From a virus: DNA of 23,119 bases. Below, piece by piece: positions 13,402 to 17,601 of the stretch; position 1 is the stretch's first letter; every line of letters begins with the position of its first letter. Both the position numbers and the translations under genes were made by a program. The stretch lies in the IMG/VR virus record IMGVR_UViG_3300042691_013768, positions 1 to 23,119 of that record, one strand, 5' to 3'. Below the pieces are notes generated by a model. That model was not told the DNA's origin and searched no databases. It saw only the letters and a program-made list of their open reading frames with translations.

Positions 13402-13593
13402 ATGTTTATCGTTTCAATCATATTAGTTATATGCTGCCTTACGTTCATGATCAAAAACTCAATATATGGCTGTGGTAAAAGATGTTACAAGACTCGTAAA
13501 GAGGCTCAAGAGCATTGCGATTATGACCAACAGGTTTATATGTGTTGGGAGTGTGAAACCTGGCATATAAAAAATAATGAAGAAAATCCTTGA
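13402..13593 (+). CDS. Membrane-anchored zinc-ribbon protein (63 aa)
   Basis: Residues 2-17 form a hydrophobic segment (FIVSIILVICCLTFMI) likely to be a membrane anchor. The rest carries a small zinc-ribbon pattern: C24-x3-C28, then C48-x2-C51 and H55 in YMCWECETWHI, with KTRKEAQEHC between. A tyrosine, CxxC and WH ending is familiar from small phage zinc-ribbon proteins. Zinc binding and any nucleic acid or protein target are inference. It is the first gene of the rightward operon and its ATG falls at the predicted transcription start. If leaderless initiation does not occur, the ATG at 13447 (MIKNSIYG) would give a 48-aa version without the anchor. Its stop codon overlaps the promoter of the structured RNA. 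Confidence 0.6.
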   Translation: MFIVSIILVICCLTFMIKNSIYGCGKRCYKTRKEAQEHCDYDQQVYMCWECETWHIKNNEENP

Positions 13594-13620
13594 CAACCTC
13601 GCGTGGTTGTTTTATGTTTG
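13590..13620 (+). promoter_or_regulatory. Promoter with a palindromic spacer, driving the structured RNA
   Basis: TTG (13590-13592), 20 bases, TATGTTTG (13613-13620) matches the Bacteroidota promoter. The spacer contains ACAACCTCGCGTGGTTGT (13593-13610), an 18-base palindrome broken at one symmetrical pair, placed exactly between the two promoter elements where a dimeric repressor could block polymerase. The expected transcription start is near 13625. Confidence 0.7.
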
Positions 13621-13624
13621 CCAC

Positions 13625-13728
13625 ATATTTCACTCCTCGTTTGCTAACGAACCACAGTAAACGAGGATTGGATAAGTTAATAACTTACCAATTAAAAGCT
13701 CGCAAAGTGGTTCTTGCGAGCTTTTTTT
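13625..13728 (+). ncRNA. Predicted structured RNA, three hairpins with loop-loop pairing
   Basis: Three hairpins follow one another between the promoter and the terminator. Hairpin 1 pairs 13634-13642 with 13659-13667 (nine pairs) around a 16-base loop. Hairpin 2 pairs ATTGG (13667-13671) and TAAGTT (13673-13678) with AACTTA and CCAAT (13682-13692), a three-base loop and one bulged A; it shares base 13667 with hairpin 1. Hairpin 3 pairs 13694-13705 with 13714-13725 (12 pairs) and ends in a run of T. Loop 1 contains GAACCAC (13649-13655), and loop 3 is AGTGGTTC, whose last seven bases (13707-13713) are the exact complement. A kissing contact is therefore possible. It may be a stand-alone small RNA or a leader that controls the initiator gene starting at 13734. 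No known family recognised; it is not a tRNA. Confidence 0.6.
13694..13728 (+). terminator. Intrinsic terminator before the initiator gene
   Basis: A perfect 12-pair stem (AAAAGCTCGCAA with TTGCGAGCTTTT), an eight-base loop and seven consecutive T residues. It ends five bases before the initiator ATG, so the replication genes need read-through, antitermination or incomplete termination. Confidence 0.85.
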
Positions 13729-13733
13729 ATTTT

Positions 13734-14390
13734 ATGAATACAGGACAAATAGTAAAAACCAGGAACGTGCCATTCGCGATGGTTCCTACAGAATTTCTTA
13801 GGGACAAGTCCGTAAGTCTAAAGGCAAAGGGATTGCTGTCTTTCTTATTATCATTACCTCCCGACTGGGTGATATACAAGAGTAAGTTGACTGACTATTT
13901 TTTAGACGGAAAGGACTCAATATCAAGCGCTTGGGACGAGTTAGAGGTGTTGGGATACATACACTCAGTGCGAATTATTGGGGGTGACGGACTATCAAGG
14001 GGGTTTAACTACATCGTGTACTACGAGCCAACGGAAGTCGGTTTACCGGAAAGCGGTTTAACGGAAAGCGGAAAACCCGATATCCGAAAACCCGCCACTA
14101 TATATATAGATAATACAAAAAAAGAAATAACATATAAATACTCTTTCGAGCAGTTTTGGTTGGAGTACGACAAAAAGGTAGACAAGAAACAAACCTTAAC
14201 TGTTTGGAATAAACTATCTGCTGAGGACCGAATACTTGCTGTAGAAGGCATGGGTAACCACAAATCGGGTCGCGAGCGCAAATACTGGAAGGACCCGGTT
14301 CGTTATCTTCGCGACAGGAGATGGGAAGACGAAACACAAACGAAAACAATAAAACAAACACCTATTCAAGACGATGGCAACAAATGGTAA
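13734..14390 (+). CDS. Replication initiator, lambda O-like organisation (218 aa)
   Basis: The N-terminal part looks like a winged helix: SLKAKGLLSFLLSLPPDWVIYKSKLTDYF, then DSISSAWDELEVLGYIHSVRI, as in phage replication proteins that bind origin DNA. A linker with five-residue repeats (about residues 99-125, ESGLT, ESGKP) follows. The C-terminal part, FWLEYDKKVDKKQTLTVWNKLS to KDPVRYLRDRRWED, resembles the helicase-loader end of O- and DnaT-like proteins, where a tract ending in L-x-x-R-R-W-E-D is common. Its gene carries iteron-like repeats at the linker and an A/T-rich stretch after them, as lambda O does. I chose the ATG at 13734 because an upstream in-frame start at 13590 would run through promoter, RNA and terminator. 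It overlaps the primase-helicase gene by 17 bases. Confidence 0.7.
   Translation: MNTGQIVKTRNVPFAMVPTEFLRDKSVSLKAKGLLSFLLSLPPDWVIYKSKLTDYFLDGKDSISSAWDELEVLGYIHSVRIIGGDGLSRGFNYIVYYEPTEVGLPESGLTESGKPDIRKPATIYIDNTKKEITYKYSFEQFWLEYDKKVDKKQTLTVWNKLSAEDRILAVEGMGNHKSGRERKYWKDPVRYLRDRRWEDETQTKTIKQTPIQDDGNKW
14029..14145 (+). other. Candidate replication origin inside the initiator gene
   Basis: Repeats with a 15-base period occupy 14031-14094. Two near-identical units are GGTTTACCGGAAAGC (14040-14054) and GGTTTAACGGAAAGC (14055-14069), 14 of 15 bases the same. An earlier partial copy is ACGGAAGTCGGTTT (14031-14044), and the later pair shares GAAAACCCG at 14071-14079 and 14086-14094. An A/T-rich tract (14097-14145, with TATATATATAGATAATAC) follows, suited to DNA melting. 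Iterons followed by an A/T-rich region inside an initiator gene is the lambda ori arrangement. The repeats also encode a five-residue protein repeat, so they could be only a linker. Confidence 0.45.
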
Positions 14391-16311
14391 AATCTCAATC
14401 TACAAAGACTTCAATGACCTGCAAGGACACGCAATTACTGTGTTGGGCGCACTTGAACGAATTCGGACTGGAAAGTCAAAGGAACTCGTTGAGAAGGCGA
14501 GGGAAGCCAAGACTAAAAAGGAGGCTGACGAACTAAAAAAGAAACTTCCAGCGGTCTGTTTCAGCGGTCTTTTTAACAAACGTAAGGACTCAGAACTCGT
14601 AGAACACTCCGGGTATATCGTACTTGATTTCGATAATGTGACAAATATTGCCCAAAAAAGAAATGAATTAATAGCAATAAGCTATATCAAAGCTGTTTGG
14701 GTGTCGCCGTCTGGCAAGGGATTGAAGGCTTTGGTCGAAATTGAATGGAAAAGCAAGCATAAAGAGCATTTTGATGCCTTAATGAATGATTTCCCGGACA
14801 TTGACAAGACAGGACGGAATGTTTCTCGTTTATGTTTTGAGTCTTACGATCCTCAAATTTACTACAAGGCTGAAGCAGAGGTTTTCTCAAAACTGCCTGT
14901 AAAGAAGGAGGATAAGAGGTTGCCCAAACAGACAACTACCGAGACCATAAACGACGACGATAAGATATTCCAAAATCTTTTGACTTGGATGACGTCCAAG
15001 GGGGACGCATTTAGAGAGGGAGAAAGGAACCACTTCGTTTTCAAACTAGCTGCTAGTTGTTGCAGGTTTGGGATGCTTGAGGAGACGTGCTACAGCATGA
15101 TGATGACCTACGTTGTCCCCGACGCAAGCTTCAGTCAGATGGAATGTCGCCAGGCAATTCGTAGCGCGTACAGGGCCAATATGAACCAATGGAATACCGC
15201 TGAGTTCACCAAGGACCAGTTGGTTAGTAAGGCTAACCGACAGGAGGTTGACATCGTAATCACCGCAGAAGATGCGGCGAATATTGCGGCGAATGACGTA
15301 ATTTATGCGGAGGAAGTCATGGAACAAGCGTCCGACATTTACCTGCATGGATACAGGGCTGCTCAACCACTAGGAGTCCCACTACTTGACAAACACTTCA
15401 AGAGGGTGAAGGGAGACTTGACGATTGTGTCCGGGATAGGAAACTATGGTAAGTCATCGTTCATGAAGTGGGAGATGGTGTTTCGAATCGTGAAGTTTGG
15501 AGAAAAAGTTGCCATTTTCACGCCTGAAGAATTACCAGCAGAGCAGTTCTACCATGACCTTGTGGAGATCTACTTTGGGAAAGACTGTACTCCAAATAAT
15601 CCGAACCGTCCGCCATACGATATGTACATGAAGGTGTACAAGATGATTGGGGAACACATCTTTATGGTTTACCCCAAGAGTGTAAGCCCTACCCCCGAAT
15701 ACGTCAAGGAGGTATTCCTTACTCTCATCGTCAAACACGGAGTGGAGCGAGTTATCATCGACCCGTTCAACCAGATGTCAAACGATTACGCCAAGGGTGG
15801 AGGACGAAGCGACAAGTACCTTGAAACCTTCTTGTCCGACTGCACACGATTTGCTCGGAAGAACAACGTGTACTTCGACATCGTGGTCCACCCGCACAAG
15901 ATGAGGAAGGGTGACGATGGAAACTATCCATGCCCGGAGGTTTTCGACTTAGCAGATGGGGCGATGTGGAACAACAAGGCCGACAACATCCTAATATACC
16001 ATCGTCCGTTCGCTCAGACGGCCCCAGAAAGCCCTATCTGTGAGTTCCATAGTAAGAAGATCCGCCGACAAAAGATCGTGGGTATAAAGGGCTTCTTTGA
16101 GTTCCAGCTACAGAGGAACACTCGGAGGTTCACGTTTGACGGAGTAGACTATCTTCAGCAGGCTATTGACGGGAAGTATGTACAGGCCCAGATTGAGGAA
16201 CCAAAGCCATCGGTCATCAAGCCGAATAGAAGCTGGACGGATTCAAGGGACGCCAAGGAGTGGGACGAAGATGTTCAGCACCCTAACGGGTACAAGGAGG
16301 CTTGGGAATAA
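14374..16311 (+). CDS. Primase-helicase fusion (645 aa)
   Basis: This protein would make primers and unwind DNA at the phage fork. The N-terminal third resembles archaeo-eukaryotic-type primases of the BT4734/VirE-N kind: YIVLDFDN with D85 and D87 as metal ligands, VSPSGKGLKALVEI at 110-123, H132, and TGRNVSRLCF at 146-155. Residues 213-275 look like a primase C-terminal helical domain. The C-terminal half is a RecA-like DnaB-type helicase: Walker A SGIGNYGKSS at 353-362, Walker B VIIDPFNQM at 460-468, HPHK at 506-509, DNILIYHR at 537-544 and a basic KKIRRQK near 561-567 as a likely arginine finger. It overlaps the initiator gene by 17 bases, supporting joint function. Domain calls are by eye. 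Confidence 0.75.
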   Translation: MATNGKISIYKDFNDLQGHAITVLGALERIRTGKSKELVEKAREAKTKKEADELKKKLPAVCFSGLFNKRKDSELVEHSGYIVLDFDNVTNIAQKRNELIAISYIKAVWVSPSGKGLKALVEIEWKSKHKEHFDALMNDFPDIDKTGRNVSRLCFESYDPQIYYKAEAEVFSKLPVKKEDKRLPKQTTTETINDDDKIFQNLLTWMTSKGDAFREGERNHFVFKLAASCCRFGMLEETCYSMMMTYVVPDASFSQMECRQAIRSAYRANMNQWNTAEFTKDQLVSKANRQEVDIVITAEDAANIAANDVIYAEEVMEQASDIYLHGYRAAQPLGVPLLDKHFKRVKGDLTIVSGIGNYGKSSFMKWEMVFRIVKFGEKVAIFTPEELPAEQFYHDLVEIYFGKDCTPNNPNRPPYDMYMKVYKMIGEHIFMVYPKSVSPTPEYVKEVFLTLIVKHGVERVIIDPFNQMSNDYAKGGGRSDKYLETFLSDCTRFARKNNVYFDIVVHPHKMRKGDDGNYPCPEVFDLADGAMWNNKADNILIYHRPFAQTAPESPICEFHSKKIRRQKIVGIKGFFEFQLQRNTRRFTFDGVDYLQQAIDGKYVQAQIEEPKPSVIKPNRSWTDSRDAKEWDEDVQHPNGYKEAWE

Positions 16312-17060: not shown

Positions 17061-17104
17061 AGTCGTGGCGGGGGATAAACAGAGGCAAACCCGCCACGGC
17101 TTTA
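17061..17104 (+). terminator. Long hairpin after the SSB-like gene (terminator or attenuator)
   Basis: AGTCGTGGCGGG (17061-17072) pairs with CCCGCCACGGCTT (17090-17102) through about 12 pairs, including G-U pairs, around a 17-base loop. Only TTT follows, so as an intrinsic terminator it is weak. It may reduce transcription into the DnaA-like gene or protect the 3' end of the SSB message. Confidence 0.45.
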
Positions 17105-17115
17105 AACAAACGAAC

Positions 17116-17601
17116 ATGAGATACACATTCAAAGACCTAGTAGAAATAGTTCCGTCACAGCGACGGAAAGAATTTACAAAAATTTACGAATACCTCCACA
17201 AAATGGAAGACCCACAAGAGAACACAATTCTTGAAAAGGTTAGCAGACATTTTGAGGTTCCGGTTGCAGACATCAAGAGTAGCAAAAGATTTGCAGACAT
17301 TGTGTTGGCAAGACAGGTTTATATGACAGCAGTAAAGGTATGTTCAACAAAAAGCCTTGCTGAGGTTGCTAGAACCGTGAACAAGGATCACGCAACAGTG
17401 TGTCACGCACTTAAAACGGTTAAGGGTGACTATTCATTTAATGCTGTACGCAGGAATAAAATACGCCATTTCATTGCCGACCTAGACCAAGCCAAACAAG
17501 AACTTTTATTAGACTTTTTCAATGAACGGAATCCCGATATACTTGCCGCCTACACCGTCAGACCAGAGCGAGTTACAGCACCTTCGGAGTCTGAGGCATA
17601 A
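17116..17601 (+). CDS. Solo DnaA DNA-binding domain protein (161 aa)
   Basis: The core IKSSKRFADIVLARQVYMTAVKVC followed by KSLAEVARTVNKDHATVCHALKTVKGD matches the C-terminal DNA-binding domain of DnaA: a helix with a conserved arginine, then SL-x-x-(I/V)-(A/G) and the signature DHATVCHA (usual form DHTTVLHA). No AAA+ ATPase part is present, so it is not a full initiator. It could bind DnaA boxes as a competitor or as a phage regulator. I chose the ATG at 17116, with an A-rich leader. A GTG at 17065 would lie inside the hairpin and add 17 residues of poor quality. The last 80 bases overlap the next gene in another frame. Confidence 0.7.
   Translation: MRYTFKDLVEIVPSQRRKEFTKIYEYLHKMEDPQENTILEKVSRHFEVPVADIKSSKRFADIVLARQVYMTAVKVCSTKSLAEVARTVNKDHATVCHALKTVKGDYSFNAVRRNKIRHFIADLDQAKQELLLDFFNERNPDILAAYTVRPERVTAPSESEA

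Follow-up and report, generated by a model that had tools for sequence, protein, structure and literature searches.

What does a predicted RNA with two complementary hairpin loops do directly in front of a phage replication initiator gene? The locus lies in a viral DNA stretch of 23,119 nt (the window, which here means this whole stretch). A preliminary description had placed a promoter, three hairpins, and a terminator across 13590-13733, with GAACCAC in the loop of hairpin 1 and its exact complement, GTGGTTC, in the loop of hairpin 3. Re-reading of the sequence found all of these parts at those coordinates and confirmed the complementary loops at 13649-13655 and 13707-13713. The features of the locus, in window coordinates, are as follows.

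13590..13620, + strand: Bacteroidota-type promoter, predicted from the consensus (TTG at 13590-13592, TATGTTTG at 13613-13620)
13593..13610, no strand: palindrome ACAACC-TCGCGT-GGTTGT between the promoter elements; both arms change together in L031, L035, and L037 (CAAAC..GTTTG)
13625..13728, + strand: predicted leader or small RNA of ~105 nt, with ends placed from the promoter and terminator
13629..13672, + strand: hairpin 1, 17 pair positions including a lower stem, loop at 13646-13655
13649..13655, + strand: kissing loop 1, GAACCAC, pairing with 13707-13713 in 46 of 46 distinct homologues
13673..13687, + strand: hairpin 2 (TAAGT/ACTTA), from single-sequence folds; variable among homologues
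13694..13725, + strand: hairpin 3, the intrinsic terminator stem, which covaries
13707..13713, + strand: kissing loop 3, GTGGTTC, the exact complement of GAACCAC in loop 1
13722..13728, + strand: terminator T-run, 5 nt before the initiator ATG (13734)
13734..14390, + strand: replication initiator, 218 aa (MNTGQIVKTR...); phrog_270, E = 1.1e-20
14374..16311, + strand: primase-helicase of the same operon; PF08800, E = 5.6e-20, and phrog_18375 DNA primase/helicase, E = 6.1e-52

The promoter was read as an upstream element, TTGAC (13590-13594), and a -7 element, TATGTTTG (13613-13620), and a Bacteroidota-type promoter also lies ahead of the RNA in nearly all homologues among the loci compared. The 5′ end of the RNA was placed ~5 nt past the TTTG of the promoter and the 3′ end at the T-run. 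The palindrome between the promoter elements (13593-13610) is likely an operator. In L011, L012, and L040, a similar CAACTCGTG(T)TG is found farther upstream than the palindrome of the window's promoter. As had been proposed, the initiator follows the element directly; a few bases to about a dozen separate the T-run from the ATG within the window's clade. The initiator start was set at MNTGQ, which is conserved among relatives, and the list of open reading frames begins the same frame at 13590. This protein is modular: the MNTGQI start and the C terminus are conserved, and the middle (approximately residues 8 to 120) is swapped between unrelated versions. Another gene of the replication operon (17065-17601) encodes a DnaA C-terminal DNA-binding domain (PF08299, E = 2.9e-18), and a similar DnaA-domain gene lies directly ahead of the RNA in L202-type phages. 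Just upstream of the promoter is a small + strand ORF (13402-13593; 63 aa, MFIVSIILVICCLTFMIKNS...) that is conserved in, e.g., L077 and for which no family match was found.

The predicted RNA folds with an energy of -39.3 kcal/mol, compared with -17.2 ± 2.9 kcal/mol for shuffled sequences (z = -7.5), and 0 of 200 shuffles folded as well. Two details of the preliminary description were corrected. Loop 1, given there as 16 bases, has 10 nt in the predicted fold, and hairpin 1 is longer than described: below its upper stem (13635-13645/13656-13666), the homologues add a lower stem in which 13629-13634 pairs with 13667-13672. Since this lower stem also covaries in the homologue alignment, hairpin 2 is best taken as the short stem at 13673-13687 and not as the TTGG..CCAA helix of the single-sequence fold.

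Searching viral contigs with the initiator recovered 63 loci; wherever the upstream region is intact, the element occupies the same place. The element was absent upstream in the examined examples of phages whose primase-helicase is only 50 to 54% identical. Covariation was scored in an alignment of 46 distinct homologue sequences (A5). All 322 cells of the seven kissing pairs are paired; three of the seven positions show compensatory changes on both sides and none is broken, indicating that the loop-loop complementarity is real and conserved. A lack of compensatory changes in homologues had been named as grounds for refutation; such changes were present in both stems as well as in the loops. 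In hairpin 1, 7 of 17 pairs changed on both sides and were still kept (91.5% of cells paired); in hairpin 3, this was the case for 4 of the 10 pairs counted (98.3% paired). The whole structure is 95.3% paired, a value that fell to 37 to 50% in control alignments with the partner slid by one to three columns. Hairpin 2 varies freely among the homologues. Five types of loop 1 occur in the clade, GAACCAC, GAGCAAC, GAGTCAC (L014), GTAAGGC (L047 to L052), and GTGGAGT (L110, L112, and L113), and each has its exact complement in loop 3. In the last two groups, both 7-mers have been replaced completely (GTAAGGC/GCCTTAC and GTGGAGT/ACTCCAC).

The same alignment indicates which strand acts. In more than 90 cells, a G-U pair on the + strand corresponds to an A-C mismatch on the opposite one. 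Many covarying pairs are G-U only on the + strand, and the RNA is therefore the + strand one; an RNA from the minus strand was ruled out on these grounds. The strand bias also bears on whether the complementary 7-mers are a DNA-level signal, i.e., inverted-repeat protein sites of an operator or origin. Origins are often found beside replication initiator genes, and here the 7-mers adjoin such a gene and the promoter has a palindrome as well. However, the 7-mers lie in hairpin loops, and the structure that holds them covaries with G-U pairs of the + strand. Nor do repeats and initiators keep to each other: one repeat can stand before different initiators, and the same initiators can stand behind different repeats. 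We regard a DNA-level signal as very improbable.

The genes behind the RNA were compared across loci. Within the clade, the same RNA precedes at least three unrelated initiator N termini (MNTGQ, MHNQYS, and MLMISCD), and this swapping between different initiators argues against recognition of the RNA by the initiator protein itself. Over all loci, the initiators behind the RNA belong to phrog_270, phrog_19658, phrog_11233, DUF1376, DUF6291, and phrog_15768. The predicted RNA is thus tied to the initiator operon and to no single initiator. In some loci, a homing endonuclease gene stands immediately behind the RNA: GIY-YIG in L230 (1581-2054), HNH in L269 (2056-2451), where it lies between the RNA and the initiator, and NUMOD4-HNH in L264 (1710-2069) and L277 (785-1261). 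The junction behind the RNA looks like an insertion hotspot for different homing endonucleases. The locus does not have the makeup of a type III toxin-antitoxin (ToxIN-like) system: the RNA is a single unit rather than a tandem repeat, and it is followed by initiators or homing endonucleases, with no endoribonuclease toxin.

The same layout, consisting of a promoter, hairpin 1, a linker, and a loop-complementary terminator hairpin at the head of a replication-initiator operon, was found in other Bacteroidota phages. Loop sequences are unrelated between layouts; 28 loop pairs were listed in all, and the loops lie 46 to 60 nt apart in nine representatives. L202, which has a distant initiator, carries the promoter, a short hairpin (loop GGTTCAGA), and a terminator hairpin with CTGAAC in its loop. 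Relatives of L202 together with a motif scan define a second family. Its GGGTGCGG..CCAATCCC core hardly varies, and its loops (GTTCAG, GAGTCAG, TGTCCG, ATGCAG, AGGCAG, GTGGCTT, GGGCAAT, GTGTCAG, and GTGCAG) each have a complement. A generic scan for a promoter, a hairpin, and a loop-matched terminator revealed further layouts in L247, L282, L288, L289, L269, and L277. An exception is L343/L244, where the contiguous match between the loops is just five bases long (L244:88-184, GGGGAAT and AATCCCC).

Several cultured phages carry the element before their replication genes. In the Baltic Flavobacterium phages morran, tooticki, lillamy, sniff, snusmum, mumin, and mymlan, the loops GTGAGAAG, GTGAGACG, and GTGGAACG are each complementary at 8 of 8 positions. 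Flavobacterium phages elemoA and elemoC have the loop TGAGAGC and Cellulophaga phages phi10:1 and phi19:1 the loop GTACGAC; in Tenacibaculum phage JQ, the loop AGCATCCTAC is complementary at 10 of 10 positions. The leader of Cellulophaga phage Nekkels_1 (L358:6420-6600) contains two separate pairs, ATTGGAA/TTCCAAT and GTCTAAC/GTTAGAC. Phage tooticki6-1 has two RNAs (L353:3590 and L353:4625) with the pairs GTCGTCG and GTGAGACG, one preceding an endonuclease and the other the replication genes. No clear loop pair was found at the Panino locus, and the initiator loci of human-gut and Bacteroides phages (L366 to L368) were without the element. A nucleotide-level search of the DNA against phage records gave no similarity, and a search for chromosomal or prophage copies of the family-2 motif in 395 Bacteroidota genomes found none.

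Could the complementary loops simply be a chance match in ordinary leader hairpins? The preliminary description had argued against chance from the odds for a single sequence. Its conclusion holds, and it is the homologues that decide it; the odds themselves are weak evidence because GAACCAC alone is common in the window (five occurrences, 2.9 expected). A strict scan, which demands an ORF right after the T-run, gave 70 matches (26 distinct) in 1.83 Mb of fetched loci compared with 0 to 2 per shuffled set; the loci had been picked by initiator similarity or the family-2 motif, and the 70 matches measure nonrandomness rather than a genome-wide frequency. A few of the 26 distinct matches are likely false (L323). 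This excess, the fully paired and compensated loops, and the 28 matching pairs refute a chance match, to which we assign a negligible probability. The scans and alignments together suggest that dozens of near and distant phages share one layout in which the loops differ but nearly always match.

How the loops differ was informative. Between L202 and L226, none of 80 RNA sites outside the loops differs, compared with 8 of 16 inside the loops and 40 of 420 upstream. The loops of the predicted RNA can evidently change while the rest of it stays fixed. On the primase-helicase tree, phages change between the two main clade types on at least 10 occasions; part of this must come from recombination of the whole element, which carries both loops along, and not every switch is a separate mutation. 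Matched loop duplexes mostly have energies of -8 to -12 kcal/mol (28 pairs). For the two main types, A and B, the matched value is -9.0 kcal/mol versus -0.5 and -2.8 kcal/mol when they are cross-paired, and the loop types are largely orthogonal. Phages snusmum (L361) and tooticki (L353) are identical over the 440 bases up to the promoter and then carry different RNA alleles and replication modules; the boundary at the promoter is a clean cassette boundary. Loop identity, beyond structure, is probably under selection.

These patterns bear on two further explanations. The first holds that the element is a purely structural clamp in cis, i.e., a compact nuclease-resistant fold or an RNA polymerase binding site for put-like antitermination. 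The narrow spacing of the loops and the place beside an early promoter, which resembles put, would fit such a role. A clamp does not, however, predict that loops change in an otherwise identical RNA, nor that the phages switch repeatedly between two mutually incompatible types, and we consider it rather unlikely. The second is a free small RNA acting on an unrelated target in trans (a host mRNA or protein), with the initiator merely lying behind its terminator. It agrees with the very stable fold, with a promoter and a terminator that belong to the RNA itself, and with the independent exchange of RNA and downstream gene (L202, L218, and L219). However, a fixed target would hold the loop constant, while the loops here vary freely as long as they match each other, and the RNA keeps its place in front of the initiator operon in widely differing phages. 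Moreover, no allele-matched third site was found in the phage within ±5 kb of the element. Without a third matching site nearby, loops 1 and 3 are taken to be each other's partners; an allele-specific target elsewhere in the phage was accordingly rejected for the ±5-kb range. A free small RNA with an unrelated target is, on balance, improbable.

The reading we favor, with some confidence, is a dual-purpose leader: an RNA that would serve both as a terminated small RNA of ~105 nt and as the leading part of the initiator mRNA, whose expression the kissing contact would set. Most transcripts from the promoter would stop at hairpin 3, at a length of ~105 nt, and the remainder would read through to become the mRNA of the replication initiator and primase-helicase. 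There is no room for a further promoter before the ATG, and we therefore infer that initiator transcripts come by read-through of the terminator. In the proposed mechanism, the loop of hairpin 1 kisses the terminator loop (7 bp here and 6 to 10 bp elsewhere), and this contact would tune either terminator read-through or ribosome access to the ATG directly behind the hairpin. Because the element lies directly before this ATG, it can act on initiator expression. Against this reading, no antiterminator is evident in the design: the loop pairing is compatible with a formed terminator stem, and the contact might either raise or lower expression.

Whether the contact joins two parts of one molecule or two molecules affects what the leader would do, and the covariation fits both arrangements alike. 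A contact within one RNA that tunes its terminator in cis is a real possibility, at nearly even chances. Given the short linker after hairpin 1, a 7-bp contact inside one molecule would presumably require hairpin 2 or the base of a stem to open, a consideration to which we gave no weight. Alternatively, terminated RNA that has built up could act on nascent leaders in trans, making the contact one between copies; this is plausible at roughly one chance in three and would give feedback on initiator synthesis or exclude coinfecting phages that share the loop type. The diversification of the loops appears to favor a role in trans. The absence of the family-2 motif from the 395 Bacteroidota genomes suggests that the phages are virulent, and a virulent lifestyle would make exclusion of coinfecting phages or copy control likelier than lysogenic immunity. 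We also entertain, tentatively and as rather unlikely, a typed self-recognition in which each phage type has a private loop pair, its terminated RNA restrains the initiator of leaders of the same type in trans, and selection for escape diversifies the loops.

The dual-purpose leader was compared with known RNAs. An Rfam 15 scan, suggested in the preliminary description, gave no family at the gathering score for the window or 15 relatives, and the below-threshold matches were unrelated and far below threshold. The c4 covariance model (RF01695) likewise had no match in the window or in the 15 relatives, and no description of such an RNA was found in the open-licence literature searched. The c4 antisense RNA of phages P1 and P7 lies upstream of its target gene and is cotranscribed with it, and this transcript contains complementary segments. 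It is a processed RNA of Proteobacteria phages that blocks translation; the leader described here is likewise upstream of its presumed target gene. Complementarity of the c4 type to the ribosome site of the downstream gene was not found: loop 1 instead matches the terminator loop, which lies 20 nt ahead of the ATG, with no further match nearby. RNA I and RNA II of ColE1 act at a replication control point through RNAs of ~100 nt with 7-nt hairpin loops whose kissing defines specificity. The ColE1 partners come from opposite strands of one locus, whereas both loops here are on one strand, with covarying G-U pairs that support the + strand RNA only, and no antisense transcript is needed. The preliminary description had likened the element to HK022 put, whose hairpins lie just after an early phage promoter and affect termination, acting on RNA polymerase through two hairpins to suppress later terminators. 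Only the position near an early promoter supports that likeness; put is not known for pairing of a loop with a terminator loop, nor for a changing loop pair.

A comparison with P4 CI RNA or IsrK appears to fit better than one with put. P4 CI RNA, a phage RNA, stops transcription of the replication genes. IsrK, from the Gifsy-1 prophage, is the short terminated form of a phage transcript; read-through yields an mRNA, on which IsrK acts in trans (PMC4825925). Complementary segments on the same predicted transcript, as in RNAs of this type, are present here as loops 1 and 3, all paired. Like P4 CI RNA, the element is a predicted phage leader before replication genes with complementary segments on one transcript and termination as the presumed control point. 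However, P4 CI RNA is cut out of a longer transcript, and its pairing partners are seqA and seqC; it does not join a hairpin loop to a terminator loop. P4 itself is a temperate phage, whereas the 395 Bacteroidota genomes searched lacked the family-2 motif, and no sequence relation to P4 CI RNA was found. The predicted layout resembles that of IsrK, in which one promoter gives a terminated small RNA and, by read-through, the mRNA of a phage regulator. IsrK differs in pairing through helix strands near a ribosome site, without hypervariable kissing loops, and in controlling an anti-repressor rather than an initiator. Covarying kissing loops within one RNA are also known from GOLLD and ROOL, in which several proved to be contacts between copies (PMC12286853). 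Those phage or bacterial RNAs resemble the element in their kissing loops but are far larger, form cages, and are not initiator leaders. By analogy, the RNA may work most like P4 CI RNA or IsrK, and by sequence it is a member of neither; the predicted loop-to-terminator contact and the changing loop pairs distinguish it from both.

The element appears to represent a class of phage RNA not described before, one that would set the time at which the replication genes are switched on. To our knowledge, control of replication onset in Bacteroidota phages is almost unknown, and here one layout, absent from Rfam, heads the replication operons of very different phages. The cultured Flavobacterium, Cellulophaga, and Tenacibaculum phages allow the element to be tested directly, and loop pairs that change and still stay complementary offer ready-made compensatory mutants as well as an orthogonal set of RNA switches. 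Contact between copies, if that is how the element acts, would amount to RNA-only recognition between virulent phages; the typed self-recognition, if true, would be an RNA-only exclusion or copy-control system of such phages.
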